From assembly GCA_000310025.1 (NCBI GenBank), contig FN649733.1, positions 1,324,482 through 1,388,481 of the forward strand: a stretch of 64,000 nt of DNA, written 5' to 3'. Made by a program: the position numbers and the translations under genes. Positions 1,151 to 39,961 of this stretch are shown here, in pieces. Source of the DNA: Ectocarpus siliculosus (Eukaryota; Sar; Phaeophyceae; Ectocarpales; Ectocarpaceae). The notes beneath the pieces were generated by a model. The model worked only from the letters and a program-made list of their open reading frames with translations, had not been told where the DNA came from and searched no databases. Position 1 is the stretch's first letter. Each line of letters starts with the position of its first letter.

Positions 1151-1736
1151 CATTTGTTTGTTTGTTGTTTCATGTTCAGCATGCCCTTGCGTGCAACCCT
1201 GCGTTCCGGCGTCGCGGCCACGCCGACTTTTACGAATTTCACTCGCGATCGACGTTGTCGTTTTCCCCGCAACCCTCCCGTGCCCTTAAGCGTGGATTAG
1301 GGTGCTTCCTGGGGCAGATCAATCGTGCGGCTACCAAGCAAACCAGTATGTGTGTCAGACTACCTTGCGGTGTTGGCATACCATCAACAAAGAAAAGCCA
1401 GCGTAAAGTGCGCGCCTGTATAGACGAACCGAACGCAGAGCCGTAGGGGCATGGATGGGCGTTGACGGGCCGATTGACCGTTGCGACGAGTCAATGGCTC
1501 GCCGGCAGGGTAACAGGGGCGCCCCCCCTACGTTCGCAGCGTTGCGATCAGGGAGGAGGATTAGACTACGTAGTTCAGGACCACGTTATGATCAGGTCTC
1601 GAAGGGGATGGAATGTCTTTTGTACGCCCTCCCGAACGATTACTCAGTGCTTGCAGAGCGCCTTGTAGTGTGGTAGTCCAGTAAACATGCAGACGCAATT
1701 AACAACAAACCGTGGGTAACGCAAGTTTCGTTCATC

Positions 1737-2438
1737 TTGAAAGGAACGGCACAACACTATTGTAGCTACCACTGCGGATGGCAGACGAGGTATCTGGCGG
1801 GTATATTTAAGAAGTACGCGCCACCACTTAACAACTGCTTATTTTGGGCAAGGCTCGGCGTTCACTGGTTACCTCAAACCGAGCCCATGTCCTCAACTTC
1901 CAAGCTCTTATATGGAGCAGGCATCTACCGAAGATGCGGCTCTCGTTCTTATTTCTCCGCCGGTTGCCCCATGCAGAGGACACAGGTCTCCGTCGTGGAT
2001 TTTCAACGTGACGCAAAGAGTACAATTGGGTGTTTAACACCACCAGAAATATTGGGCATCCCCGCCGGACAAATTGGGGAAGATGTCCAGAGGTTCAGTA
2101 GGAAGGGAGAAGTTGTCATGGTGGGCGATTTCAACTCCAGAGTAGGGAAAGCTTCCAGTAGAGGACAGGCGATCGGGCAGCACCGAGAAGACAAAGTGAA
2201 TGGCAACGGAGTGAGGATGCTTGAAATCTTGGGAAGTAACGAGCTGATGGTGTTGAACGGTAGAAGGGATTGCGAAAAGCCGGAGTTCACCAGTCAAAGG
2301 GCAGTTTGCAATGAATACTCGATCCTCGACTACATCCTGGTAGATAGGGGGAGCACACAGATCCCAGAGCTGCACGTAAGTGCGATAGATATAGGTTCGA
2401 CCGACCACTTCCTCATATGGGCAAACATCGACCGATGA
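1737..2438 (+). pseudogene. LINE endonuclease (EEP family) remnant
   Basis: The open frame ends at the stop at 2436-2438. It contains VVMVGDFNSRVG (about 2116-2150), the metal- and substrate-binding GDFN motif of the endonuclease/exonuclease/phosphatase family. It also has SILDYILVD near 2320-2345 and STDHFLIW near 2399-2420, which is the position of the catalytic S/T-D-H motif. This enzyme nicks target DNA to start target-primed reverse transcription. The first half of the domain, including the usual N-terminal catalytic Asn and Glu motifs, is not recognisable in this frame, so the copy is inactive. Confidence 0.8.
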
Positions 2439-2950
2439 AACAGAGGAAAGTGTTCGGTGGAAAGTAGAGCGTTTGGGAGACGAGGGGACACGGGGTGAAT
2501 TCCAGAAGGGACTGGCTGGTAGTGTAGAACTCTTCAGGAAACTGCTAAGAAGCGTTGAAGACGGACAGGTAGACGTACAAGCAGCAGGGGACAGGGGGGT
2601 TGAAGGGTTGAGTCCATAGTGAACACAACGGCAGAGAGAGTAGTGAGAAAGAAGGTGGTACGATGTGGGCTATCGGTTACGTGGTGGGAAGACGAGCTGA
2701 AAGAAGAAATAGGGGAACGTATAGAATTCTTCAAGCAATAACTGAGTGAGGGGTCTGAGGGGGGTTGGGAAACGTACAGGGCCAAGAGAAAACAGGTGAA
2801 GGGACTAGTGAAAAAGAAGAAAAAAAGCATTTGGGACGAAGTAGTGCAGAAGGCCAACGGAGGCCTGGAGGGGAACATCAAGCAGATGTGGGAAGGGATT
2901 AGTGGGACGGTAAAAAAGACCGCGCAGGGGGGGATACAGGGGTAGCAACT

Positions 2951-4037
2951 TTGCGAGGTGTGAACGGTGGACTAGTCAGCAGTGGGAAGGGAAAAAGGGA
3001 AGTTCTAGCAGGACACGACAAGAGACTTGGAGTGCCTTCGGAGAATGAATATTTTGACCAAGTGTTTAAAAACGAGGTAGACACATGGCCCCAGGAAGAA
3101 GAACAAACATCGAAGGCAGATGTTGGGAACGTAGAGCTAGAGGAGGAGTTCACTGAGGACGAGGTTGAGGCGTGTGTGAACAAGCTGCAGTGCCACAAAG
3201 CAGCAGGGGCGGATGGGATAGTCAACGAGTTCATGAAGTTTGGGGGGAAGGGGATGATCCAGCTGATGGTATTGCTGGATAACTGGGTATGGAAAAACGA
3301 GTATGCGCCAAGTAGATGGAGGGAAGGAGAGGTTGTGAACTTGTTTAAGAAAGGAGACAAGACTGACCCAAAAAACTACAGGGGGATCACACTGTTGAAC
3401 ACAGTAGGAAAAGTGTTCTGTAAGCTGCTGAACGACAGGATAGTGGGAGTATTGGAGAAGGAACATAGCATTAGTGAGGGCCAGGTAGGTTTTCCGAAAG
3501 AAGAGGGGGTGAGTAGACCACGCATTAAGGTAGGGAAAATCATCCAAGGTAGAAAGAGGGCGGGAAAGTCGACGTACTGCTTCTTCCTGGACGTAATAAA
3601 GGCATACGATACATGGAGAAATGGGCTGTGGAAACAATTGTCCAAGTACGGGATCAAGGGGAATATGTGGAGAGTGCTGAAGAAGATGACAGAGTGTACG
3701 AAAAGTGATGTAATGCTAGACGGAGAACTGTTCAAATTCTTCGACATTGAACAGGGAGTCCCACAAGGTTGTACGCTGTCCCCAACATTGTTCCAGGTGT
3801 TCATCAACGATCTGTTGAAAGTCGTAGAGGCAGTCCGGAAGGGATTAACATTAATTGGGGGACACGGAAACTTCGGTGTCGGGAATGCTGTTTGCGGATG
3901 ACTTTGTTGGTATGTCGGACACTGCAACTAACGGTAAATCGACGAGGCGAAGAAGTTTACTGATAAATGGAGATTGTCTGCCAACGTTAAGAAGAGTGCC
4001 GTCATGGAATGCAACGAGGAAAGGGAGGAACCAGTAG
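2951..4037 (+). pseudogene. LINE reverse transcriptase remnant
   Basis: Fingers and palm motifs are clear: GADGIVNEFMK (motif 0/1 region), PSRWREGEVVNLFKKGDKTD, NYRGITLLNTVGKVF, FFLDVIKAYD (motif A, aspartate at the catalytic position), and GVPQGCTLSPTLFQVFINDL (motif B). The catalytic pair appears as LFADDF in a different frame near 3885-3905, so a frameshift separates motif B from motif C. This is an LINE-type RT and differs from the Ty3-type RT further along. The copy is broken. Confidence 0.88.
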
Positions 4038-4231
4038 AATATAGATGAAAGTGGGGGATCGAGGAGATTGCAGTAGTGGACCAGTACACATACCTCGGAG
4101 TAGAGATCGCAAAAGACTGCTCGTGGAATGCACACATGTCCCAGGTAGCGGAAAACGGCAAACCACGAGTAAGGAAGCTGCACCCAATACTCACAAACCG
4201 GCACCTCGATACACGCATCTAATGGACGGTT

Positions 4232-5190
4232 TTGAAGAGCGTAATCGTACCGCCGCTAGAGTACGCCGGAGACGTATGGGAAGGAAATAAGAATGTCGTG
4301 AAAGAATTCGAGGCGGCGAAGATAAAGGCAGCGAAAGTCATCCTAGGATGCTCCAAGCGCACAAGTAATGCAGCCGTCAGGGCAGAACTGGGGACCAAAT
4401 CCCTACGGTCGGGAAGAGACGCAAGGAAGCTGGCATGGCAGTATCGCATGTGCGGGATGGGAGAGGAGAGGTTGCCGAAAATAGCTTGGGAGGCGAAGTG
4501 GGCAAACAAAAAGAGGGGCACACAACCCACGGAATGGGTCAAGGTTGTAGAGGACGTACGGAAGGGGTTCGAAATCGACGAAGATGAAACGCTGGAAACG
4601 GAGGGTCTACAGGGGTTCAAGGAGAAGATATCTGTTGCTTGTGCCGAGAGAGAAGAACAGAATCTAACCAAAGAACCCGAGGATAAGGAGGGTCTCGAAG
4701 TGTACGGAATGCTGAAAGAAGGAATAGGGTTCAAGGATTACCTACAAGGACCAAAGGGTGCAGGGACAAGATTTAGGCCAAATTCAGGACCGGGGACATA
4801 GGCCTTCGAGAACGTCGACGAAGACAGACATAGGACGGTAGACGACGAAGACAACAAGTTCAGATGTGATTGCGGCTCCGAGTGCGAAGACGGGATTCAC
4901 GAATGTCAGTTGTACGAAAAGGAGAGGGAAGTGTACATGACTGAGCTGGGAAAAATACAAGGGAGGTACAGGGAGATGTTTGAGGCATGGAATAGAGAGG
5001 ATAAGACGGTAGCTGTACTGGGGAATAGGAAGTGGTTTGAAAAGGCGGGCAGTGATATCGTTAGGATAGATAGACTAGGGAAGACATTTTTGAGCCACCT
5101 TTGGCACAATAGGAAGGAACGATTGGCCATCGGTGATCGGTCCTGTGGGAACAATGCTCCGTCCCCTCGAGGACGGTCTAACCGCTAAGG
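4232..5190 (+). pseudogene. LINE C-terminal region with Cys/His cluster and 3' tail
   Basis: An open frame beginning SVIVPPLEYAGDVW, typical of the thumb and connection region after LINE RTs, runs from 4232 to a stop near 4799. A second piece carries CDCGSECEDGIHECQLY (around 4865-4915), like the zinc-knuckle-like end of many LINE ORF2 proteins. This is followed by MTELGKIQGRYREMFEAW and LSHLWHNRKERLAIGD. These last segments and the following TCGGTGATCGGTCCTGTGGG module recur in the downstream copies and define the repeat unit. Confidence 0.7.
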
Positions 5191-8398: not shown

Positions 8399-8814
8399 TC
8401 TTTCGGCACCCATGCATGCATCCAGCAGCAGCATAACAACAACGTGTTTCAATCATTGATGTTCTTCTTTGCGTTGCGGGAGCGACGCGGGTGCGTGTGG
8501 GGTGTGCTGCCCTTCATACCCTGTCTGGGTGCAACTATCATGCATTCATTTCAGCTAAAAAAACGTCGCGTCGCCTGAGCTATAACACCGCTCCACTCAG
8601 ACCCGTCTCGGATGGTGGCAATGTATCTCAGAGATGGCTGCGGAACATGCAGCATCGAAGGTTTCGCCCGATGCAAGGATCTCCATTTTGGGAGATTTTT
8701 GGTGACTTAGTCGCGGTGGGTCATGCTGATCAGATCCCTGATGGTGATATCGTGACATCATCGTAATGTAAAACCCTAACCGTCGGGAAAATAGGACTAT
8801 TCGTCCCAGGAAAA
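8399..8814. other. Target-side flank of the LTR element; no gene recognised
   Basis: I see no convincing exon here. The last bases before the LTR are CAGGAAAA. The four A residues at 8811-8814 match the AAAA that follows the far LTR (22242-22245), so they may be a short target-site duplication. Confidence 0.4.
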
Positions 8815-9119
8815 TGTTATGGAGGAACAGAGAAATAAAAGAGGGAAGGGAGCAAGGGAGCAAGCTCGTTGCTCCTAGCTTCGGGTACTCACAGTTCTTG
8901 TTTGATCTCTTGTTTAGCCTTCTTAGACCAGGTCCGCTCAGCGCCCACTCGGAGAGTGAGGGAGCGGGGCTGGGCTTTTGATCTTCCTTCAAGCTACTTC
9001 AATACCCCTCAACGTCGCCAAATATCCATATCAAAAGAAAATTCAAAATATCCAATAAGCGCTCACACAACGTTCATGAAACGCTCGTACAACGCAAATA
9101 CACTAGTTGCTCCATTACA
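8815..9119 (-). repeat. 3' LTR of the Ty3/gypsy element
   Basis: Bases 8815-9119 begin TGTTATGGAGG and end GCTCCATTACA on the plus strand. They match 21941-22241 at roughly 96% identity apart from an 8-base and a 4-base length difference. The element is read on the minus strand, so this is the downstream LTR. Confidence 0.93.
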
Positions 9120-9652
9120 TTAGCCCACCCTGGGAAGTCGTAGATGCAGATACTTTATCGTCAATCTAATACTCAACCTCAAATAAAGATCGAAGATGCG
9201 ACTTTCCAAATCAGACAAAATAAGATAAAATAAAAGCAACTCGGGTCAGAGAAAATATTTCATCCCCGACAAATACTCCAAACCATCCCCACACCACACA
9301 GTGATGACTACTGAGAATCACATCGCCAACGACGGAACCAAATCTGAATCAAAATGGGGTTCGGTCGCGTTGGGCACGCAAAGGTCGGGGTGACTATTGC
9401 AACAATAGAAGAAGCTCACACCACCCAAACACGCGCTAGCGTACCACTGCGTACGATGTAGAACAAAACATAAAAAACATGTAGCGGCCCGTAGGCGGCA
9501 TGATATCAAAGCACAGATCCAGATGGGGCAACAGCCAGCTGTGCCACAACGCCTGGTGTTCGCGACGTAACGCCATCATCCGTGGAGGAGTTGGTCAAAC
9601 CACGAGTACGGTGTTATTGCAAGTACCAAGAATAACAAGGAGCATCCAAAAC

Positions 9653-9805
9653 CGTGGAGTAACTATACTCCGGGAGAGAAAGCTTTCGAGGGCCGGGGGT
9701 GTCCAAAAATCGAACAATGTACTGGCCTGTTACGAAACTACTAATCTGCCCAAGCCACCAAAGTCCATCCAAAGCTTTGTACCAAATGTGGGCTCCGACA
9801 GGCAA
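9653..9805 (-). mobile_element. Tudor/SH3-like module at the end of pol
   Basis: The segment VGAHIWYKALDGLWWLGQI followed by QYIVRFLDTPGP has the aromatic-rich beta pattern of Tudor, Agenet and similar chromatin-reader folds: a W-Y-[KR] strand, a WW-x-G turn and a [VY]VRF strand. It lies about 50 residues after the chromodomain at the C-terminus of the integrase polyprotein. Fold assignment is by pattern only. A generic SH3-like barrel is the alternative. Confidence 0.5.
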
Positions 9806-9961
9806 AACAGAAACAGAGAAGCGAGCCAACCAAATGTCACGCGAAACCAACTCGTACCCAGGAGCAATGAAACGTTCGGCCTGATTCCGAGCAAGTTTTC
9901 GGTCGGCCGAAGCTATCCGAGCATTACGATAAGCTCGGTTTCCTTGTACGCGCTGACTAGC

Positions 9962-10162
9962 GTTACCAGACCAGTAAAGCAGAATGTATTTTCTGTATTC
10001 CTGCAAATCAGACTCCCTTTCCCACGACGGTGTCAAGAAACCAATCCAATGGGTCAGGTACAAGACAGCTACCACACCACCGCGTCCACGTACAATTTGG
10101 TGTCCTGAAATGTTCTCAACATCCAGACGACTAGACTCCGCTAAAATATCATCAGCAGTCAA
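9962..10162 (-). mobile_element. Integrase-linked chromodomain
   Basis: The segment reads ADDILAESSRLDVENISGHQ, then VVAVLYLTHWIGFLTPSWE. This matches a chromodomain: [VI]xxIL near the start, then a Y-L-x-x-W-x-G-[FY]-x-x-x-x-x-S-W-E core. Such domains in chromoviruses direct integration toward marked chromatin. It belongs to the Ty3/gypsy element. Confidence 0.75.
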
Positions 10163-10639: not shown

Positions 10640-11410
10640 TTCCACCGCAAGATTGCAGAAAGCGAGCTGGTCTCGATCCAAACTTTGATGGCCACCCACG
10701 CTAGGGTGGTCCAAAACAGAAAGCGGGAGACGGGGCAACCGTCCAATATGCACTTCATTCGGCGCCAAACCTGTGGCGGTGTTTACCGAGTTGTTGTATG
10801 CAAACTCGACATGGGGAAGATGGACGTCCCAATCGTCCTGACGCTCATTGACCACAACAGCAAGCATTTGAGCCATGGTGTGGTTAACACGCTCGGCCCC
10901 ACCGTTAGTTTGGGGGTGGTACGAACTGGTGGTGACTTTCTTGATCTTCATCAGCTCGTAAATAGCCATGGACAACTTGGAACAAAATTGCATAACGTTA
11001 TCCGAAAGAAGAGTCACCGGACAACCTCACAACGTCATGTAGCGGTTGACGAAAATGTTAGCCGTTCCCTTAGCGGTAAATTCCGCCTTGGTAGTGGCAT
11101 ACATATCCGCCCGTCGACTGAAACGGTCCGTAAACAAAAGTATATATGCATTCCCACGGGACGTGACCGGCAATGGCCCAAAAAAATCGACGCTCACTAC
11201 AATACCCGGTCCATTCGGGAGGGGCAGAGTGAGCGTAGGCCAGCGATACGTTTGCCGGGAAGTCTTGCGCGCTTGGCAAATTAAACAACGCCGAAGCCAC
11301 CAACGCACGGACAAATCCATCCCAATCCACCAGAAAAATCGCTCCAACATACGTAAAGTCCGAGCGGTGCCCAGGTGAAAAGACGCGGTGACGTGACATG
11401 CTTGTAGGAC
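10640..11410 (-). mobile_element. Ty3-type integrase region
   Basis: At the upstream end is a zinc-binding HHCC region (HVTASFHLGTART, then CLICQARK). It is followed by the catalytic-core start VVSVDFFGPLPVTSRGNAYI, with an aspartate in the DD35E position, and further on by YHPQTNGGAERVNHTM, which carries the catalytic Glu motif of gypsy integrases. FAYNNSVNTATGLAPNEV is the usual end of the core. The region is part of the broken element. Confidence 0.88.
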
Positions 11411-12479
11411 CCAAGGTCGCAATAGCATAGGCACGTATATGCGCGGAGTCTTCGACGGCGGGAGGCGAGTGATACGCCCGCCCGAACTACCGAGAGGCAG
11501 TGGGACAGAATTTCGCACCAACAATCGCGTGCCATCGTCTGTAATGTGTAGGCATGTTTTAGATGCGAGGGCGACAACATCAGACAACGCCGGCCGTCGC
11601 GCACAGGGCAAGCAATCCCAGAATGTATCCGGCAAAACCACCGGGGATCCCAAAGACGAAAAATGTATAGCCGCTACACACTCACTTTCTGACAGCTGTT
11701 CTCGGGCCCAATCGGCATGCGAGAATGTATGCACACAGTCGCGGAGGTGGGTTTCCTCAGCGGCCGTTGGCGGCACCACGGAAGTCGCAGGGCTAGTACC
11801 TGCGGGCGACAACACTGGCGGCATGGGCGCCGCGGGCGGCGGCGGCGGCTGCAATTCAACCGGCGCCCAAGAAGGCAGCGGGCCAGAAGTAGGGCTACCC
11901 ACGGTTCTCGTAGACCGCGCGGCACGGCTCGACCGGGCCGGGGTTCGAGGAGGTCGCGGCGGTCTGGGCACCACAGCGGCCCGTGGTTGTGTCGGAAAAT
12001 AATTGGGACGGCTATGAGCCATGCCCGAGGCCGAATTCGTTCTCGCCCGGGTACGAGAAGAAATCAGAGGGCCACCCGAAAGCGACAGGGCAGCTGAGGA
12101 GGTTCCGACGGTGGACGAGGGAGCGACGTCTGTCTCCGCAGAAACGGAAGCCGGAGGAGGTCCATCGGGCACAGAACTCTCGGGGGCTGCATCGCAAACG
12201 ACAGCGAAAACACCAGGCGGCGAAAAATTCGACGAATCAACTACGGAGGAGGGCGACAGAGCCGGCAGGACCATTTGTGGCCCAAAACGGCGGAAGTCTC
12301 CAAAGTCATCCTCCGTCAGAGGCGCGTGTGCCAACGCGTCTCGTTGATCGTCAACGTCAAGCCCACCCAAGCCGATGTTCGGCGTCGAACTAGAGTGATA
12401 ACTCTGTCCGCACGCACGAATGAGATACACGCCCGCGGCGTCATCGACTGCGATACTGGTGTCACCGTGTCTATCCGCG

Positions 12480-12931
12480 TCGGTTGCCGGCAAGGGCAAC
12501 CGCGAAAGAAAATCCGCATTGGCGTTGGCAGTGCCTTTGCGGTAGACAAGGGTGTAATTGAACGAGGAAAGGAACTCGAGCCAACGTTGGACGCGGGCGT
12601 TGTGTTCACCCACCTTGACGATGCTCTCCAAAGCCTTGTGATCCGAATAAATCAGAAAGTGCGTAGACCAAAAATAACCGCGTAAGCGTTTAATTGCCCA
12701 CGCGATACTTCCAGCTTCCAAGTCGAGCACTGTCCAATTGCGCTCGGATTCGAGCGTAGCGCGGCTAACGAACAGAATGGGACGGATTGAACCATCGGCC
12801 TGTTCCTGTTCAAGGGCCGCACCAAAACCATCGATACAGGCATCACAGCAAAGCCGGAGAGGGCGGCTGCCATCTGCGACAGCGTCCCAATCCGGGAAAG
12901 CCAAAACCGGAGGTTCTGACAGTTTCGCCAA
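12480..12931 (-). mobile_element. Ty3-type RNase H region
   Basis: LRLCCDACIDGFGAALEQEQ, then ILFVSRATLESERNW, then DLEAGSIAWAIKRLRGYFW, then YSDHKALESI, then GTANANADFLSRLP are the standard landmarks of the gypsy RNase H domain (DAS..G.GA.L.Q, S..L...E.NY, E..A.....R.YL, TDH..L, N..AD.LSR). It removes the RNA strand during reverse transcription. Confidence 0.9.
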
Positions 12932-13279: not shown

Positions 13280-13800
13280 GGGTCGGCGTCAAACACAATC
13301 ACATCGTCCAGGTATGCAAGCACATGGTCTAGACCTTTAACCACTTCGTTGATGACCATGGTGAACCACGACGGTGCCACGGAGCTTCCCTGAGGCATAC
13401 GGAGCCACTCGAAAAGTTGTGTGGGCGTACAAAACGCCGTAAGCTGAACCGTGTCCTCTTCGACGGTGATTTGGTGGAAAGCGGAGTTAAGATCGAAAAT
13501 GGAAAACACCTTGCCCTTGTGCAGGGAATCGATGATGTGGTCAACTCGCGGCTGCGGTTGTTGACCAAGGCTGCACAATTTGTTAAGTTTTTTGTAGTTC
13601 ACGGTCAAACGCAGATTACCGTCCTTTTTAGGCATGACAACCAGAGGGCTCGCCCACGGCGATTGCGAGTGCTGAATAAGACCGGCAGCAAGGTGTTGAT
13701 CGAGAAATGCGTCGACCTTTTTCTCCACCAGAGGGTTGAGCCTATAGGGACGCGAGGCCAACGGTTTCGTGCCCGGGGGCACTACCAAACGAAACTTTTT
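13280..13800 (-). mobile_element. Ty3-type reverse transcriptase region
   Basis: FRLVVPPGTKPLASRPYRLN, SPWASPLVVMPKKDGNLRLT, VFSIFDLNSAFHQI, FEWLRMPQGSSVAPSWF and VLAYLDDVIVF are the classic gypsy RT motifs, with YLDD as the catalytic pair. The remaining RT thumb region lies toward 12.9-13.2 kb. Confidence 0.92.
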
Positions 13801-14577
13801 CACGGAACAGCAACCGAAATCGGACGGTGACCGCGAAAACACATCCGAAAAGTCACACAGCACATCCGCCAGGCTGTCAATGGCTTCCGGGGTCCAACCC
13901 GAGTCATGTAAATCAAGAGTCACATCGTGCAAATGTGCAGGCAAACGTTGCCACAACTCGCGAAAACTCACTCGCTGCGCTTCTGAGAGGCGTTCCAACA
14001 GATCCGGTGGCGGCGGTTTCGGCGGCAGTGAGGCCGCGGAAGAATCCGAGATCTCCGGATCCGCAACCGGGATGTTTGAATGCAAAAAATTCACGCGAGA
14101 CGGCGGTCCATCCGCGGAACGGGCTGGCGGCGGAGGGTCACTCAACCCAACACCCTCGGCCGTCTGCGGTGTAGGATCAATCGACGCAAGCGGAATCTGC
14201 ACAAGTGGGGCAGTCGCCACTCCAAGCACCTCACCTGGCTCCAACTCGGCGCACCCTGTCAATGGGATGTGTTGAGGCCCGTCCGAAACAAACGCGTCCG
14301 ACGCCGAGAGGGCGCCGTGTTTCGGTTATAATATGACAAGATAGTTGCCGGTGAGAGCGGGGGTGCCAGAGTTGCGAACGAGGTTCACCCTCGTCAAAGT
14401 GGGTTTATCGGAAAGGGAGACACCCTTCCTGCCGGCGTACCGCAGGAAGTAAGATGCCCCGGGGGCGGAGGGTCCAGCGACATACGCGGAAGCGCCCGCC
14501 GCAAAATCCGATGACAGAGAAAGTTTCTCCATAATACGTCCACTTGCCGACCGCGTGGGCAAAGTAGTGGACAAACG

Positions 14578-14940
14578 AGAGTTAAAACGCATCCAACTAT
14601 CACGTCCAAGAAGGAGGGCGTGACCCATGGCGGCAGCTGGGACAACATACACCCACACCGCTAACGAAGCGGTGGCACTATCACCATAAAAAAATTGAAC
14701 GGACAGCCGCACGGATGAGGTGGTTTCAAGAGCATTGCCAGAGCCAAAACCACCCCACTGCCGAACGGGCACCGAACGACGACTGTGGACGGATGCAGCT
14801 CCTGACGCCTCCATGGCTTCAAGGAAAGCATCACTAATGAAAGATGAAGGTGAGCCCGAGTCCAAAAGGGCTACACCAGGCGCTGTACACACGGCTCCGG
14901 TACCACTATGAACGCGGACTCGCGTCGTAGAGGTATCGCA
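14578..14940 (-). mobile_element. Retropepsin-like aspartic protease region
   Basis: GVALLDSGSPSSFISDAFLE carries the D-S-G active-site triad in place of the more common D-S/T-G-A. GHALLLGRDSWMRF is the second hydrophobic-hydrophobic-G-x-[DN] flap-base motif. The domain follows the NADAR segment by about 100 Pro/Ala-rich residues. Confidence 0.82.
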
Positions 14941-15231
14941 ATCCACTAAAACATCACCGCTCACCAAATCTGGGCCGTGTTCCGCCAATAGCGGCGGTGG
15001 GGAAGCGGCGGCTTCGCGAAAAGCAGCAGAGGCAATATGCAGCACCTGTTTCGAGTGGTCCGCGGGCGTGTTGGCTGGCACGTCCAGCGGGCCGTGCGCG
15101 TCCTCGGGCGAGGAATCATTGACCGAAGAGTCCTCACCCGGGGGCGCAATTTCGTGGATAGTGGGACACACGGGAGCAGGTTGCCCCGAGTGTTCAGGGC
15201 GCTTTGGCTTATCGGGTTCGACCGGGCGCAC

Positions 15232-15705
15232 ACGCAGAAGCGTGCGCGTCGCAACAAGCGCTTTGCCCAAGAGGTTTTTACCAGTCCACTTGGAGGGCGA
15301 CGCCGCACGCGGATCGGAGGCATCAACACCAATGCCCCACAATCCGTCATAAGGACTGGCCTCTGCTATCTGTCTATCACCCGTAGCCAACAAACGTTCA
15401 CGTGCGTCAGCATTTTGGGCGAATTTCGCATACAAAAGCGAAAAGACAACATCCTCGCGCCGGAGCTCCCATAGAGCATGGTCAAAACCGCGTACCTTGC
15501 GACCAAGGGACTTGTGTTCTCTCGGGTCGGACGTAGCCATGATTTTGGCATAAGCGGCATCATCGCCGAAAATGCGGGCTTTCTCCGCCATCATGAACTG
15601 TTCGCCGCACACGTAGCGAATGCCATGAACCGAGAACTCACAGGGCGTCCAGTTAGACAGAAAGGACGGCGGTTTCCAAAAGAGGAAAACCTCATCGTTA
15701 TAGTA
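15232..15705 (-). mobile_element. NADAR (YbiA/DUF1768-like) domain inside the retroelement
   Basis: About 157 residues match the NADAR family along its whole length. The landmarks in order are EVFLFWKPPSFLSNW (the FLSN motif), IRYVCGEQFMMAEKARIFGD (E..f...KA..f.D), GRKVRGFDHALWELRREDVV, LLYAKFAQNADARERLLATG, EASPYDGLWGIGVD (the D..WGIG motif) and WTGKNLLGKALVATR (W.G.N.LG..L..vR). Known NADAR enzymes cleave N-glycosidic bonds: YbiA acts on riboflavin-pathway intermediates, and other members remove ADP-ribose from guanine in nucleic acid. Its job in the element is unknown. A defence-countering role is inference. The domain sits in one frame with the protease. Confidence 0.9.
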
Positions 15706-16559
15706 TTCCTGACAACCGTCAAAAACAGGGGCCTGCCGCGCGGGTGCGTTTACCTTCCCCGAAGAAATATCATCAAGAGAAATGGCACCGGCAACCGGCA
15801 GGACAATCTGGGTGCCTCCCGAAGGCGGGCCGGATTGTGGGTTACGAGGAGAGGCAGGCAAGAGCGGTGAACCAGCCGCAGAAGCGTGCGAAACCAAGCG
15901 GTCTACGCGGGCGTTGGCGTAGGCCTGTTCATTAAAAGCGGCCTTCATCGCGGGCGCTCGACCAACATGGTCAGCGGCCGCGGGAGGCTCGGGACCGCTA
16001 TTTCGTGACAAAGAACATGAACCTTCCGATTTGGGGAAACCGTTACTTGCGCTCGGCAACGGCGGTGCAGTCAGCACCGTGCGACGTTGGTGCTCCGTAG
16101 AGGAACGTCGCGAGGGGTCCGGAGGGGGCGCGGTGGGTACAAGCGTACTCGAGCCACCGCGGCGGGCCTGCGGTTATCCCGAAGGTTCCTGTGCTCCAGC
16201 GTGGTTGATGAGACCACCCGGAGCCGCCGAACGGTGGGAGAAGCCGGAGCCATGCCTCCGGGGGGCGTAGACATCGGGGCGAGCGTCCGTGAGACACCCG
16301 AAGTCTGGTCGACCCCTCGCCCACACCACAAGACTGTATTCGGCGCCGACGAGTCACGTCGGTCATCCAAAACAGGCTGTGATGAGGCGTGAGGCGACAT
16401 CTGAGAATTAAAAGGTTGGGAAACTAACATAGGCGAGCCCGAAGGCGTCTGTATGATACGAACATCTTGGGAACTAGTCGTACAGCGCACACCCGGTGCT
16501 GTTGACGGCGATGTGTGCAAAAGGCCGTCACCGGCGTGTCAGTTACCCCGCGAGTGCGG

Positions 16560-18640
16560 GGTTCCGGAACTTCGAGTGTACGGAGTTCCAGGTACGGCGG
16601 CGGGCGCCGGGGTCGCGGCGGCGCCTACGGCCGGCGCCGGAGGTGGTGCGTGTGTAGTTGAGCTAAGTTTCCCAGAGCGGCGGCCGTCGCCCTGTGTATG
16701 GCCGCTGCTCTTACCCGGGCCATTTTTATTGTGTACACGCGGGCGGTGCGACTTCATGCGGCTTTGCCAACGTTGAAAAACCTGAACGCTATCAGCATGC
16801 GAAGCAATGGCCGGGTTTAAGAGGCCGGTGTAATTGGTGAAAGCATACGGGCAAGTTTTGAGGCTGTGGCCCGCCTGCCCACAGTTGAGACATTGGCCAG
16901 AAAATCGCCGCAGAGCTTGCGCTCGGTCGGCAGGGGTCAACAGCGGTGTAAACAACGGGGGGTCCATCTTAGTCATACTTGCCACAACGCTGTACACAAA
17001 GCCGTGGTGACCACGCAACGGCCAGCAGTCGTAGTCCTGCTCGAATGGACATGTGTTATCGGACGGCACAGGGTCGATAGCCATCACCCCGGCGGGAAAT
17101 TGTGTTCCCGGCGACCACGCGGACGGCTGCAGCGGCGGCGGCGGTGGCGGCCGCTGCTGCCCCACGGTCGCAGTCATGGCTCGTGTGGGCGCCGATGAAA
17201 ACCCAGAGGTGACAGTGGTAAAATAACGGTCGCCGTTGCAGGCGGGCGAGTGTTTTAGTGCTTCCTCCGACGACAAAGCATCCCAAAGCTCATCCTGATC
17301 ACTAAACACCACGTTGTGGAGAATCTTCTCTTTCAACGGCAAAGACGAGAGAACATTCGGGTACTGCTCCAACAAAGCGTCCCGAAGCGCACGTTGTACC
17401 ATGCGCAGATCCGGCGCGAAAGCCCTATGCGAGGCCAACTCCGACATTGCTAACGCCTTAAACTTCGTAACGAATTTGCTGTACGGCGTGCCGTTGGGCA
17501 CACCAAAATCCTGCAGCTTGTCGATGCCCCGGTTGAAACCTTTCGGTTCCCACTCATCCGCAAGCAGTTTGAGAAGCCGACGGTATGCCGAAGGCCCCGA
17601 CTTGTCCTTCGTCTCCAAGAAACGTTTCACCTGAGAAAACGAAGAATCCACCAATTCGCGGGTTGCGGCATTGGCGCCTTGAGGGTTCGAAATGGCCATG
17701 AGGACACGCTTGTGAAAGGGGGCATACCATCCAGCCACCCATGAGGGCGACTTGATGGTCTGCTTGCCGGAGGGATCGGCGGCCGACAGAATTTCAGCCA
17801 ACACACTTTCGGTCGAACGAGCGAAGGCAGAAAATTCTGCCGGGGGAAGCGGCACTACCGCATACAATTCGTTCACTTTAAGCTTGCCGTATCCTTTGCG
17901 CACGCTGAGGGCGTACACCTCTGCGGCGGCAACGGCGTTTGCATCAAGCTGTGCCTGCGCGGTGCGTGCACCGGCAGACGACAGGGGCAGTGCCCGGTCA
18001 TCAGCGGAATCGCTGGCGGCCGCGTGCACGGCCGGCAGCGGTGGCGTCGCTACCGACACCGCGATAGCCGAGACCGGTGGTTCCTGTGGCAAAACACGTT
18101 GGGAGAGCGTCGGTACCACCCCAGAAACCTGTGTCGTCTCCGTTTTCACAACGGAGGCGGGGGGCGGTACCTCTGTTTTCACAGCGGCAAATGATGTATG
18201 AGATGGCAAAGCGTAGGCTACTGACGGTGGCTCTGACTTTACTAACGGCACGGGCTGTTGTGGCATCACCAGCGGCTGCGGCACCGGCGGCACCAGCGGT
18301 ACCGGCGGCTGCAGCACCGACGGCGGCGGCGCCGGCAGCTGCTGCGGCGCCGGCGGCTGCGGCACCGGCTGCCTCGGCACCGGTGGCGGCGGCACCGACG
18401 ATTGCGGCACCGGCGGCTGCGACACCGGCGGCTGCGGTACCTGCGGCATCGGCACCGGCGGCACCGACGGCTGCGGCACCGGCTGCGGTGACATCTGCAA
18501 CGGCGGTACCGGCGGCGACGGCACCGACAGCGGCGACATCGGCGACGGAAGTCTCGACGACGGCACGTCGAAAGCCGCTACCGACGGCGACGCCGTCGCC
18601 GACGGTTGCCGCTGCTGGGGAAAACTCGACAAAGACATGC
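16560..18640 (-). mobile_element. Gag region with Pro-rich linker, capsid-like domain and zinc knuckle
   Basis: Reading on the minus strand, a disordered N-terminal part is followed by a long run of PxPxVPQPPVPQ-type repeats (about 18250-18500). A helical capsid-like region of about 250 residues follows, with SPSWVAGWYAPFHKRVLMA, SFSQVKRFLETKDKSGPS and YSKFVTKFKALAMSELASH. A single CCHC zinc knuckle, CLNCGQAGHSLKTC, lies near 16850-16900 and is followed by a basic tail. This is the layout of a Ty3/gypsy Gag. The upstream N-terminal part (to about 19226) is Gly/His/Arg-rich. Confidence 0.8.
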
Positions 18641-19403
18641 GATGCAATAGCTGTCGTGCATGTTCTAGCTCAGGCTCGGGGTGGTCAACGATGGGTTGGG
18701 TCGCTTTGACCGACGTTTCAGCGATGTGAGGCGACAAAGAACTGACCGGGGGCATGGCGGCCGCAGCCATTTGGGCAGAAGCGACAGTAATCGGGTCCTG
18801 CGGCATTGTCACGGGCCACTGTTGACCCCCAGAACCCATGAACGGCGGCTGCAACGGGTACGGATTTCCAAACGCATCTACGGCCCACGGCTGCTGGAAA
18901 AACGGCACATTTTGTCCTGCGATACCATACTGTACTTGCCTGCTATTAGTCGGACCATAGTAGGAGAGATGAGCGTGCCCGCCACGGTCAGAAGCCTCCC
19001 CCCCCCCGGCATTCCGGCGGCTATCTCCCCCGTCATTCCGGTGGCTACCCCCGCCGGCACCCGGATGAGCATCCGTGCGTCCGCGGGAGTCATGTCCTCG
19101 CGAACGGCCTGCATCCTGCCTGAGGTATTGCTGTGTATGCAGGCGGTCGTGAGTACGAGAGGAATGGTAGGACCCAGCAGACGCAGAAGTGCCCCACCCG
19201 GAAGGTTCCGAGGGTTGCCCCCCCATTTAAGAGCGGCGACCCCCCGAGCCCGCCGAACCAGACCTCGAACGTGCAGAAGTGTCCACATCCGCTCGTGCGG
19301 AGATGCCCACATCCGCCGCCCGCACACGACGCAGATCAACCACCAGCCGCTCAAGCCGCTGACGTTTCGTGGACGACCAAACGGAGCGGTAAAGCAGACT
19401 TCA

Positions 19404-21170
19404 AACCGTTTCATTACGCCGAGAAGCTAGATCGAACGAGATCTTGTACACTAGCGCAAGGCCAGCATCCTTCGCTTCAGACGTCGCAAAAATGCTGGTG
19501 TTGACGAACTCGATTAATCCGTCAATGTTGAGACCTAGAAGTCTAGTGTGGAGAGAACTAGCCTGGAAATCACCTGCTTCAGAAGACGATGAAGACGAAG
19601 AAGACGAGCTGGACGAAGAGGTGCTCGAAGAGGACGAGCTGGACGAGTTTTTGCGGGGTTTACGCCGTTTCCTGACGCGTCCCACTGGTCCACCGGCCGA
19701 GATGGAAGTGATCTCTGCGGAACTCCGACTGCGAGTCTCCGTGCCTCCCTCTTCAACAGGCATGGTGTTTGTCGCAACCGCAGCAGCATCACTGTCGAAA
19801 CCAGTCGTATCGGCCGTAGCCACAGCAGCAGAGGCTACTGCAGCCGCAGCCGCAGCAGCAGCATTAACAGGCGCAGCATCTACACCAGTTGCAACAGGCG
19901 CGGCAACAAATACAGGATTTGCAACAGCAGACGCATCAGCTACACCTGTCGCAACAGAAGCGGCAACAGGTGCAGCCGCAACAACAGGTGGCGCGGCAGC
20001 TACAGCAGGAGCTGCAGCAGGAGCAGCGGCAGCTGCAACAGGAGCTGCAACGGCAGCAGCGGTAGCTGCAGCAGGAGCAGCGGCAGCTGCAACAAGAGCT
20101 GCAACGGCAGCAGCAGGAGCTGCAGCAGGAGCAGCGGCAGCTGCAACAGGAGCTTCAACAGCGGCAGCAGGGGCAGCGGCGGCAGCAGCAGAAACTGCAA
20201 CGGTAACGTCAGAAAGTTCGGGGAAATTTTCTGCGGCTTGCAAAGGTGCTAACTGCTTTTCGAGATCACGGGCCGTCCCAGAAGCAGATGCCATCCATGC
20301 CGTGTGCTCACACTGTGCTTCCGCGTCTTCTGCCAACAACGCGGTGTACCGCTGAGCCTCCAGCCGTTCCTCTTCTTCCCGTGCTTTGCGCAGACGCTCC
20401 GATCTGGCACGCGCAGCCGCCTCTGCCAAGGCAATTGCTTGTTCCAGACGAGCATGGTGCTCGCGAGCTTTCTGCTGGTCGGTCTCTCTTCGAGACGCAC
20501 GTGCCTCGAGTTCGGCGGTTGAAAGCCGAGGGACAGCCACAGCGGCGGTCTCCTGAGAGACAGCGGCAATCTGACGGGGGATGCCGCCGGAACCAGTACC
20601 CTTACTGGCTCCAGGCGACACCGCGGTACTCTTACTCGGTGTTCCGAATGGACCCCCAGCGGAGAGAGACAAAGTAGGTGTGCCACCACCATCATTCGTC
20701 TCCCTCGGCGCCGGGAGCGTGCCTGCAGCAGGAGAGCTCCCCTGCTCTCCTGCCGTGACCGGGCTGACAGGCGTGTCAGCCTGAAGGTCCTCCTTCAGTT
20801 TCGCCATCGCAGCGGGATCTGCGGTGGTGTCGAGATCAACCGACATGCATGCACCCTGTGTTGCCATGGGTGACACATGTGTGTTGTCCCCAGGGGGGAA
20901 AACAGACGACAGAACAGCAGCAGCGGCATCGTCCGCAATAGGAAAAGAGGACGGCGATACACCATCATCAGCGGGCGAGTTACTGATCGAGTGACTGGTC
21001 GAGACCCAATCGAGGAGAGAGTGCCGGCCCTTGCCATCCAAACTCTTCAAAGCAGCGAGGGCAAAAGGCATGAGCTGATCTTGAAAACACCAAATGCACG
21101 ATGCAGCAGAAACAAAATCTAGAAAGAAAAAATCGTGATACGAATGCGAAGAGCGAAATTTTTCGCCCGA
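19404..21170 (-). mobile_element. Upstream Ala-rich coiled-coil open frame of the retroelement
   Basis: A frame of roughly 590 residues lies between the leader and gag. It has a short hydrophobic start, a disordered Ser/Pro/Thr-rich stretch, and a strongly charged heptad-like stretch (REEEERLEAQR, preceded by ASRRETDQQKAREHHARLEQ) that should form a coiled coil. It then has a long AAAAAPAAA tract (about 19810-20180 on DNA), a Ser run, and the folded-looking end LLGLNIDGLIEFVNTSIFAT. I do not recognise a family. It may be an N-terminal extension of Gag or a separate protein. Confidence 0.55.
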
Positions 21171-21703
21171 CAAAGTGGCCGTGCGCGGCCTTCTCTTCGA
21201 TCGACCGGCCTTGACCGCGGTTCAGCAGACGTAACGCACGGTCCGAAACCGGTGCCGGCAGAATGTCCTCCGGCCACAAATCGGTGGAGACAAGCCCCCG
21301 ATCGAAATGCTCAACAACGGCACCTTTTTCGCGAATTTCTGAGGTCCCTGTGAACGATTGTGCAAACGAGCGCAACCCACTACAACCAGACGGCAGCAGA
21401 TCATGCCAACAAAGCGGCCATTCAGCAGCCTGTCGCCGCCATGCGGGGGGGTAGCCAAGCGCGTGAGAAGCGTAAGGCTTTCCCCCGAAAGCAGGCAGAA
21501 AGGTGTCGTCTTGGGAGCAAAGGGGCATGTCTTTTGTTGTAACATGCACGTCATGCACAAGGTCGAAGCATTCATGGATGGAGAGCAATCCTACGCGAGC
21601 ATGCTTGCCGAGCAAGTGGGGAAAGAAGGGCCACAGCGTCCACCAAGCCGTCCCTTGGTGAACACAAAGCCATGCGAGGGGAAGCCCTCGCGCATGAGGC
21701 CTG

Positions 21704-21940: not shown

Positions 21941-22241
21941 TGTTGTGGAGGAACAGATAAATAAAAGAGGGAAGGGAGCAAGCTCGTTGCTCCTGGCTTC
22001 GGGTACTCACAGTTGTTGTTTGATCTCTTGTTTAGCCTTCTTAGACCAGGTCCGCTCAGCGCCCACTCGGAGAGTGAGGGAGCGGGGCTGGGATTTTGAT
22101 CTTCCTTCAAGCTACTTCAATACCCCTCAACGTCGGCAAATATCCATATCCAAAGAAAATTCAAAATATCCAATAGGCGCTTATACAACGTTCATGAAAC
22201 GCTCGTACAATGCAAATACACTATTTAGTTGCTCCATTACA
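21941..22241 (-). repeat. 5' LTR of the Ty3/gypsy element
   Basis: This copy starts TGTTGTGGAGG and ends GCTCCATTACA on the plus strand and pairs with 8815-9119. It would hold the promoter and transcription start of the minus-strand element. The bases just inside it (TGTGGCGTCGTCTGG on the minus strand) occupy the primer-binding site position. I could not match them to a specific tRNA 3' end. Confidence 0.92.
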
Positions 22242-22397
22242 AAAAGTGAACTTTTTGAAGAATATATTCCGAAACCACCCTCTATTAATAACACTGGAAG
22301 TATTGTACTTGAAATTCAACTATTACATCAAGTTTTGAGTCATTCAGTCGTCTCCGATGGCGGTTTGACTCGAAACCAAGTGCGAAGTATTTTTTAG
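22242..22397 (+). other. AT-rich open reading tail abutting the LTR, unknown
   Basis: Directly after the LTR, one plus-strand frame stays open for about 50 codons to a TAG at about 22397. It reads KSELFEEYIPKPPSINNTG and onward and ends NQVRSIF. Codons are A/T-ending and the stretch is visibly more AT-rich than the host exons nearby, so it may come from a different source than the flanking genome. I do not recognise the protein. Confidence 0.35.
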
Positions 22398-23660: not shown

Positions 23661-26600
23661 ATGTCGACGACCAAGCTGCTGATGGAGGTGGCCGCAGACG
23701 CTCGGGCAAAAGGGAACTTCCCCAAGGTCAGTCCTGAGAGAGCGAACGTCACAGAAGTGCGTGCGTGCGGTAGGCGGCGGCGGCGGCGGCGGCGCGGCGT
23801 GTGAGTTTTTTCAGCAAAGCAGCACCGAAAGTGCGCCGTCGCGAGGGCGAGTGGCTGTCAACGCGCCTCGAGATCTCGATGGCCCGTACCGTTCTTGCTC
23901 TCCGCACCGTGTCGAGCAGAAGGCCATGCCGCGTGGTTCTCTGAAGACACGTCTTGCCGCCATCTTCTCGGTACAACTCAGCGGGATGTGTGTCGGCCGT
24001 TTATTTTCTGCTGGCTGACAAGTAGCAACCACCAGGCAAAGGCAGGTAGAAAAAAGTAGACAGGATCCAGCGGAGCATTTTCATCCTTGTCCGTAGTGCG
24101 GCGAGACATGGGGCGGTGCTGGGTGCTGGTCCCACGTTCGCGCTTTCGTCTGCAGCGTCTGACGTTGAGGTGTATGCGACGCTGATCCAGCGAGCGCATG
24201 GTGGCACTGCGCTGGCGATCCACAGCCTAAAAAGCTGGCTCTTTCCGTCTTGAATCGATGAGTGTTTTTTTCAGCAGCTAGAGTTTTTGGCGGCGTGGTC
24301 GGGCCTTTGCCCCCATCCGCCCGATGATCTTTACCACAATGTTTTCCTTGTCCTCTTCGTCACGCTCCCCCCTGCCTTCCTCTCTACCTTCGAGCTCGTT
24401 CCTTGCACTGCATCGCTTTCTCTGTCCCTGTCGTCGGCGACTGCTGCTGCTGCTGCTGCCCAACCCTCTCCCCATGTTTCATCCCGTTCTCCTGCTCTCC
24501 TATTTTTTCTTGGGCACTGCATCTCTCCGGGGTCCGAATGTCCTGCTGTGTCGTTGTTGGGTGTGCCGCGGTTGACCTCGACGCCTGCCTGCCTGCCCTA
24601 CCCACGTCGTTCCTCTACTCGACAGGCGCAGGAATATCTGCTACGAGTTCTCAGGACCAACCCCAACAACAAGCAGGTAAGCTTCCCCGACGGATAACTG
24701 GTAAAGTTGAACGATATGCATATGAGATTCAATGCCACTAAACTTTTGCCGCATTCCCAACACATCTGCTGAACCATGACCTGCGGCCATCCAGCCGCGA
24801 TGGTACAAATACATGGAAGTTTTCAATTGGAAGTTTTATGTCAGTTTTTTTGTTGCCGTCTCCCTGCTGTGTGATATGGGGGAAAAGGACTCCCTGCCTT
24901 GCATATCGCTTCAGTCATGTCGTGCGATCGTTGACCAACGAAGCGCTTCTCCTCCTCGCACCGTTTTTTCTCTCGCTGCCAGGAACCTTTTTTTCAGTAT
25001 TTTTTATTATTAGTCGCATCTTGTTGGGACGAAGTTGTTCCTCTGACAGAGCCGGCAGTGTTTTTTAGTGTTGAACCGCAAAGAACGATCGCGCGATTCT
25101 GGTTGGAGGGCGCATGCCGAGCGCCAGCCACTCCTCTCTCATACGAATAACTTCATATTTACGCATCCTTCGGGTGTGGCACGTTACCATGTCGACGTGA
25201 GACAGACGTAGATAGGCAACTTGATGTCCTCGTTATTTACCCTCCAATTCTCGAGGGCGCTTCCCGTTGCTTGCCCGCGCACCGATGTTTATCGTTAGAC
25301 AAGCTTTTACCAGAGAGGATGCACAACCATTGGATGCGTTCTGCGTTTTCTTCGCCCCATTTGTTTTTTCGTGCGAGTTTTGGTTGTACAGCAGTAGTAA
25401 GAAAGTTCAACGGCAGTATCGAAGTGCCAATGAACTACTTGTCCCAAAGCGGAGCCTTTGGCTCCTCGGTACCCAGGTATCTACCGAAGTACATTTTTGC
25501 GTTTGAACCCGATACACAAAGGTCCGCGCGAAAGCAAGAGATTGGGCTATTTTATTAGAGACTTCCAAGCAGGTTCATCCGGACCACACTGCCCCCCTGC
25601 CCCCGAGCGGTTTCTGGGTTAGATCCCGATGTGTATCCCGCGGGCCTGGCAGCGATAAATGTAGGGAGCCAACGGCATTCCTTTAGTGGAGGCTGCATGT
25701 ATCCCAGGCGTTAGTTTCACGCACAAAGTTGACACCTTGCCGCACCTGCTGGCACTATTGTTACCACTCGTTCTCTAGGCTCCTGCCTGCTGCTGCTCCC
25801 GCAATGTTGTCGAGGAACTAACCGCGCGGAGAGCGAGAGAAATTCATGAAAACATTTGAAAATCTGCACTTTTGGGGTTTTGTCCTTGCGATAGAGGAGG
25901 GTCTCGGAACACCCATCAAAGTACGTGTACAGCAGACGCAAACACGCATAACAGGCCTTGTTCAGAAAATATATGCATGCATTCAACCAAAAAGACCTCT
26001 CGTTCGAGACAACACCACAGCAGTCCAGTCGAAGCCTTGTTCACTTCCATGCATGAATCCGTCAATGCTGCAACTCGTACTGTGATTGCTGCTTTCAAAC
26101 GTCACGGGTCAGACATGTACTGGCAGGGGAAACCGGAACCTGTCTTGAGACTACAACCATGATACGTGACACAACTTAGCACTTGCACAGGATGCTACAT
26201 GCCCAGCGAGCAGTAGATGTAGCAGCAGTCGCGGGGAAAAAAACTTGAAAAATTGCATGCATATGTGCCTCGGAGGCATACCTCAACGACCACAGGATCC
26301 TATCCGCGTGCTTGGAATTTTTAGCCGAAAGTGCGCTTAAAACTTTCTCAATGTGCACATGCTTTCTCGGTAATTTGTTTTCGCCCCCCGCGTACAAAAC
26401 AAAGCTGCGTTTGTGCAAATCCCTGACTCTAAATTCATGTTGTTGCGTTTGGTTCTGCAAAACGCCATCCCCTTTCTACAGCGCGTTTTTTTTGTGGGGA
26501 GCCTTGCACAGCCTTCATAAAAGAATTAATTTTGCCTCCCCAGGGCAGCGCGGGCAAAAATCGCACGTTTCATGTTCGATCGTTAGTTTTTTCTTCTCAT

Positions 26601-26797
26601 CTACCCTGAGCAACGCTTTTCTGTCACTGGCGAGAACTAAAACCCATTGTTATTACGACGACCCCTCCTCACAGGCGTGGGAAGAGCTTGGCCAGTGCTA
26701 CCTGGAGACGGGGAGCCTGGAGAACTCGCTGGAGGCCTACCGACGAGCGGTAGCACTCACCAAAGGCAGCGATGAAGACAGCGCCTCAGGCAAATGA
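23661..26797 (+). CDS. Small two-repeat TPR protein (3 exons)
   Basis: Three exons, 23661-23726, 24626-24676 and 26675-26797, join in phase 0 at both junctions across GT-AG introns of 899 and 1998 bases. The product is only 79 residues. It begins MSTTKLLMEVAADARAKGNF, runs through AQEYLLRVLRTNPNNKQ, and ends with AWEELGQCYLETGSLENSLE followed by AYRRAVALTKGSDEDSASGK. The W-E-E-L-G-x-x-Y and A-Y-R-R-A-V-A-L pattern is a textbook tetratricopeptide repeat. The first two exons supply the second helix of a preceding repeat and its linker. TPRs mediate protein binding, so it may act as an adaptor. The start codon is the only good one before the first exon, in a C-rich context. A missed upstream exon is possible because one and a half TPRs is short for the family. 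Confidence 0.72.

Positions 26798-34334: not shown

Positions 34335-39961
<5,627 letters not shown>

Follow-up and report, generated by a model that had tools for sequence, protein, structure and literature searches.

NADAR-bearing Gypsy long terminal repeat (LTR) retrotransposons of brown algae have been in print since 2025 (PMC12477816). The families of one Gypsy lineage are reported all to bear a highly conserved NADAR domain, which in Ectocarpus sp. 7 (e.g. Gypsy-12_Ec32) matches almost only bacterial proteins outside Ectocarpus by blastp, and sister lineages carry chromatin readers (PMC12477816). The element described here, to which that lineage is likened by its description, lies in a 64,000-nucleotide window of the Ectocarpus siliculosus genome (the whole stretch of DNA that was analysed; contig FN649733.1, positions 1,324,482 to 1,388,481), and is almost certainly a degraded Ty3/Gypsy LTR retrotransposon of the NADAR-carrying type that has been published for Ectocarpus; it differs in giving only weak matches to a chromodomain. 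The combination of NADAR and Gypsy is already known, whereas an earlier note on this DNA had been aware of no LTR retroelements described with such a domain; among the matches listed, PMC12477816 was the only paper found that joins NADAR with a retroelement.

More distant systems share single aspects of this arrangement. A Tx1 long interspersed nuclear element (LINE) of Crassostrea gigas also places NADAR on a retrotransposon, but it is a non-LTR element with the domain in open reading frame (ORF) 1, and that NADAR is described as divergent (PMC12477816). In the polyproteins of RNA viruses (nidoviruses and others), which are not LTR elements, NADAR is embedded alongside the polymerase (PMC9503650), and a NADAR-like fold was found in such polyproteins, e.g. 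that of Ingleside virus (E=3.4e-5, root-mean-square deviation (rmsd) 3.0). Orchid Ty3/Gypsy elements likewise carry a captured eraser of a nucleic-acid mark, an N6-methyladenosine (m6A) RNA demethylase (AlkB) that is active in vitro, although enzyme and mark are different and the gene is an additional ORF rather than the N-terminus of Pol (PMC9289625). The NADAR proteins of Phytophthora nicotianae (8bau) and Escherichia coli (YbiA, 2b3w) have the same fold, active site and YbiA-type glutamate as the window domain, but belong to no retroelement, and the window NADAR is closer to those of Myxococcota and Planctomycetota.

The earlier note had read a full-length NADAR with four motifs between 15232 and 15705 and had proposed a search with the PF08719 profile, which places the domain inside that interval:

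15232..15681, minus strand: NADAR (YbiA-type) domain, PF08719, by Pfam profile search

The match is significant (E=4e-47; 160.9 bits, cut-off 35.1) and spans profile positions 2-163 of 163, which excludes a chance match; its envelope corresponds to residues 165-314 of the minus-strand frame 16173..14326, and the motifs FLSN, EQFMMAEKA, DGLWGIG and WTGKNLLG are all present. The NCBIfam model TIGR02464 also matches above its cut-off (137.9 bits, cut-off 73.7); the NCBIfam family of NADAR anti-phage proteins, NF053876, scores 32.1 bits, below its cut-off of 240. No second NADAR copy was found by tblastn of the whole window at E<=1e-3. The frame runs free of stops from NADAR through to the retropepsin motifs, with gag upstream, as the earlier note had read it; reverse transcriptase (RT), RNase H and integrase lie downstream. 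The GC content at third codon positions (GC3) of NADAR (0.58) is not outlying beside that of the protease part (0.553) and gag (0.658). A chance match, or a chance insertion in one copy, was rejected on the E value, the frame joined with the protease, GC3 and the published families; that the domain is not limited to the window copy is answered by those families (PMC12477816), not by copies found here.

The LTR pair encloses about 13.4 kb with all element frames on the minus strand, in the following arrangement:

21941..22241, minus strand: 5' LTR, 301 bp, TGTAATGG...CAACA, by its TG...CA ends
8815..9119, minus strand: 3' LTR, 305 bp, TGTAATGG...TAACA, by its TG...CA ends
22242..22245: TTTT flanking the 5' LTR on its outer side, one copy of a candidate 4-bp target-site duplication
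8811..8814: TTTT flanking the 3' LTR on its outer side, the other copy of that candidate duplication
19401..21221, minus strand: 606-codon open frame lying after the 5' LTR and before gag, which may not be a gene
16539..19226, minus strand: gag open frame, 895 aa, with a zinc knuckle C-X2-C-X4-H-X4-C at 16851-16892
14326..16173, minus strand: 615-codon open frame that begins Pol and holds NADAR and retropepsin
14593..14868, minus strand: retropepsin core, DSG at 14842-14868 and LLLGRD at 14593-14616, by motifs and profiles below cut-off
13288..13632, minus strand: RT, RVT_1 E=1.1e-22, above cut-off, YLDD at 13303-13314
12560..12868, minus strand: RNase H, RT_RNaseH E=4e-28, above cut-off
11261..11434, minus strand: integrase H2C2 zinc domain, Integrase_H2C2 E=1.7e-14, above cut-off
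9971..10120, minus strand: C-terminal segment of Pol resembling a chromodomain, PF00385 E=0.073, below cut-off

From the paired LTRs and the order protease, RT, RNase H, integrase, we assign the element to the Ty3/Gypsy type, in agreement with the earlier note. DSG and LLLGRD are what we take to be the retropepsin motifs; the protease profiles are weak and both below cut-off (RVP_2 E=0.006, Peptidase_A2B E=0.05). The RT open frame spans 14325-13186, RNase H and integrase share the frame 12934-11027, and the last Pol frame, 11026-9614, holds the end of the integrase and the chromodomain-like segment (all minus strand). By eye, the motifs of the integrase catalytic core can be followed as far as about 10874, with rve_3 below cut-off (E=0.015). 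The chromodomain-like segment matches Swi6 (2rso) weakly on overlapping residues (E=0.31), and a single-sequence model of the Pol C-terminus has a mean predicted local distance difference test (pLDDT) value of 32.5. The two LTRs differ at 11 of 297 aligned positions (Jukes-Cantor distance 0.038); the TTTT duplication is weak evidence because of its low complexity. The pol of this copy is broken: an in-frame stop separates protease from RT, the RT frame ends early, and the integrase contains a stop.

Two parts of the element stand apart from the recognisable domains. The 606-codon frame (Ala/Pro-rich, with a Ser/Glu-rich tail) has no Pfam family above cut-off and may be an additional ORF, an extended leader of gag or a non-gene; the gag frame likewise gave no Pfam match. 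The Pol tail (9614-9970, minus strand), which ends in GAHIWYKALDGLWWLGQISSF..YIVRFLDTPGP, resembles a Tudor-type reader by eye, and a Pfam search of 9614-10000 gave no match.

We compared the window NADAR with 38 bacterial and phage NADARs, and found that it keeps 22 of the 23 columns conserved at 90% or more and 49 of the 111 others. When each sequence was left out in turn, the other rows kept 79 to 100% of the conserved columns, and the window 96%. The set derives from 43 loci, five of which were dropped (<125 aa or <=60 bits): seven came from tblastn lists, eight were found by hidden Markov model (HMM) in six genomes first reached via peptide matches, and the other 28 were found by HMM from a phylum scan (matches in 27 of 188 genomes; 30 of 33 matches became loci, two of them already held). 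It is less biased than an earlier set of 87 loci, but not unbiased. That earlier count (41/42 conserved columns kept against 37/111 others; 22/23 against 28/86 without pattern columns) was set aside because 80 of the 87 loci had been picked by window-NADAR peptides and seven by whole-frame peptides. Since the domain preserves the conserved columns much as its bacterial and phage counterparts do, it looks more like a working enzyme than a decaying passenger, a sequence-based statement that concerns the family before this insertion. The intact NADAR frame was also considered as a sign of selection in the window copy and rejected as uninformative, because the divergence of the LTRs predicts no more than about 9 substitutions and 0.3 stops over 471 bases.

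The only PDB chains matched by sequence at E<=0.01 were 8bau (E=1e-19; 42 of 117 aligned positions identical) and YbiA 2b3w (E=6e-6; 34 of 109). The ADP-ribose contacts of the oomycete enzyme in 8bau have been published (PMC11543638), and with that structure as reference, nine of the 11 contacts are identical in the window (E43, K50, K75, R79, W89, R93, E125, D130 and W133), as opposed to 33 of the 106 other aligned positions (Fisher p=0.0016). The residue numbering (offset 2 to the PDB chain) reproduced all 13 residues checked. The mechanistic residues E43, K50 and E125 of the oomycete protein correspond to E191, K198 and E271 in the window. E43 and K50 are reported to be largely conserved across the NADAR superfamily (PMC11543638), and the E125 site is a glutamate in all 87 relatives of the 87-locus alignment as well as in the window; a glutamate rather than Asp or His here assigns the window NADAR, by the published criterion, to the YbiA subfamily. 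When alanine replaced the E43 equivalent, the in vitro effect was minor (PMC11543638), so not all of the kept residues are essential. In the predicted model, 149 residues, in the NADAR part, have pLDDT >=90; the protease part (<50) is uninformative. The first two structures that Foldseek returned for the model were again 8bau (E=5.3e-13, template modelling score (TM) by target 0.76, rmsd 3.1) and YbiA 2b3w (E=3.5e-8, TM by target 0.77, rmsd 3.3); as modelled, the window NADAR has the YbiA fold.

Relatives were searched for in prokaryote genomes, viral contigs, phages and plasmids. With the NADAR domain by itself as query, 107 of 135 candidate stretches in prokaryote genome contigs match; among the best 80 of these, which were kept, the best 14 (51-55% identity) belong to Myxococcota or 'delta proteobacteria' and Planctomycetota, and no relative found is more than about 55% identical to the window NADAR. 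The whole NADAR-protease frame matches in seven of 13 candidate viral-contig stretches, all within residues 156-316, and in 677 of 50,697 phage records and 72 of 72,556 plasmids, none of which covers 80%; at the DNA level, two phage records match NADAR over 23% of the domain. Candidate stretches for the RT frame (0/11) and the integrase frame (0/1) were not confirmed in viral contigs.

The donor tree proposed in the earlier note gave a divided answer. Nearest relatives in the collections searched are bacterial, but the support for a more precise grouping varied: the first tree, of 88 rows, joins the window NADAR to 14 Myxococcota/Planctomycetota rows with support 99/82, on the longest end branch (1.47), whereas in a wider tree (87 rows) the like grouping of 18 rows has 49/95 and the window's own place, with 14 rows, 23/35. 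There the window's end branch (0.81) is the fourth longest and was not flagged, and the smallest well-supported set comprises 33 rows. Both trees were built without eukaryotic NADARs. A donor with a bacterial-type NADAR is likely. Published work on a stress-induced Ectocarpus protein with DUF1768 found two other Ectocarpus proteins nearest to it, followed by more than 100 prokaryotes; this protein, Esi0017_0056 (DUF1768/NADAR), raised salt and heat tolerance in Arabidopsis (PMC7922944). The same paper names the Ectocarpus proteins CBJ32535 and CBJ27468. Esi0017_0056 may be a relative of the NADAR retroelements or have arisen from them.

Some retroviral polyproteins contain a dUTPase. The Pol-borne NADAR might similarly serve as a template-cleaning enzyme, comparable to retroviral dUTPase and to the role proposed for the orchid Gypsy m6A demethylase (PMC9289625). 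Synthesised as the foremost folded part of Pol, it would reach the virus-like particle together with protease, RT and integrase; if packaged, an enzyme at the head of Pol would be dosed like RT and placed beside the RNA and the growing complementary DNA (cDNA). There it could hydrolyse the N-glycosidic bond that links ADP-ribose to guanine in element RNA or cDNA, so that, with the bulky guanine adduct gone, reverse transcription would not be blocked. For the activity, expression, packaging, substrate and benefit of the domain, we infer from relatives that have been tested. All NADARs tested took ADP-ribose off guanosine, in DNA (PMC11125620) and in RNA (PMC11833690), while those tested on phosphate ends were without action (PMC11125620; PMC11833690); the oomycete NADAR likewise removes ADP-ribose from guanine (PMC11543638). 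Poly(ADP-ribose) polymerase (PARP) has been reported in E. siliculosus (PMC4245714). Because tested NADARs act on guanosine, a PARP is reported in Ectocarpus and NADAR heads Pol, we tentatively favour the removal of guanine ADP-ribose adducts from the element's own nucleic acid as the most likely use of the domain. The earlier note had suggested that the enzyme could remove ADP-ribose marks set on element nucleic acid by host defence. The fuller proposal, that an active, packaged NADAR cleans element RNA or cDNA, which would imply ADP-ribose marking by the host or by the toxins of its microbes, appears doubtful.

Several observations weigh against adduct removal. Two of the ADP-ribose contacts are changed in the window, Y84 to F and D86 to H; in the 87-locus alignment, the Y84 site is F in 85 of 87 relatives and the D86 site is variable. 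The NADAR-protease frame opens 365 bases past the gag stop, in the -1 frame relative to gag and with no overlap. In the literature consulted, no report was met of a guanine-specific ADP-ribosyltransferase acting on retroelements, nor of an ADP-ribose mark on retroelement nucleic acid. Earlier work found no PARP in brown algae, according to PMC4245714. E. coli YbiA, a member of the same subfamily, acts less strongly than the antitoxin NADAR on ADP-ribosylated RNA (PMC11833690), and it failed to rescue cells from DarT1 (PMC11125620). The label of TIGR02464, whose cut-off is exceeded, is riboflavin-intermediate N-glycosidase. This last match is also what speaks for the least likely of the alternatives, that NADAR is a riboflavin-intermediate N-glycosidase or other metabolic clean-up enzyme with no link to ADP-ribose; such an activity would bring a retroelement no clear gain, and the retained residues are the ones that contact ADP-ribose in the crystal structure of the oomycete enzyme.

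It is unlikely that the domain acts instead on small NAD-derived molecules (ADP-ribose derivatives, cyclic ADP-ribose signals), thereby disarming a host alarm. Such a role has been argued for phage Macro and NADAR proteins, but the same paper takes macromolecules to be the main targets of the NADARs embedded in polyproteins of eukaryotic RNA viruses (PMC9503650), and a domain fixed in Pol would be scarce and held in the particle, which would fit a template-bound task better than a diffusible signal. With similarly small probability, NADAR retains its binding of ADP-ribose or nucleic acid but is mainly a structural or targeting module of Pol, e.g. one that binds ADP-ribosylated chromatin or RNA. 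The chromatin readers of the published sister lineages (PMC12477816) and the chromodomain-like tail of the window Pol are consistent with this, but all three mechanistic residues are kept, and a pure binder could lose E271. Very unlikely, to our judgement, is a passenger captured by chance without benefit to the element: pol is broken in the window copy and the intact NADAR frame says nothing of selection, but conserved columns are kept as in bacterial enzymes despite the distance from all relatives found (at most about 55% identity), and the families of one lineage all have a highly conserved NADAR (PMC12477816).

Elsewhere in the window, a LINE-like element lies at 1677-4801 on the plus strand (endonuclease E=0.0009, below cut-off; RVT_1 E=5e-19). 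Pieces resembling protein-kinase exons at 36577-37473, plus strand (Pkinase E=3e-17 for one piece and, below cut-off, E=0.002 for a second), together with a TPR-like piece (26249-26797; E=4e-5, also below cut-off), are probably host genes with introns. Searches of the window gave no tRNA and no Rfam family at gathering score.

The interest of the element lies in a retroelement-borne enzyme whose active-site residues appear, from the sequence, to be in place; because they are complete, the published in vitro assays are directly applicable to it. If the Pol-borne NADAR does remove guanine adducts, it would join the RNA demethylase of orchids among the nucleic-acid-mark erasers that Gypsy elements have captured. 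This would hint at ADP-ribosylation of nucleic acid as a weapon against retroelements, and the marking of retroelement nucleic acid with ADP-ribose would represent an unknown layer of genome defence and counter-defence.
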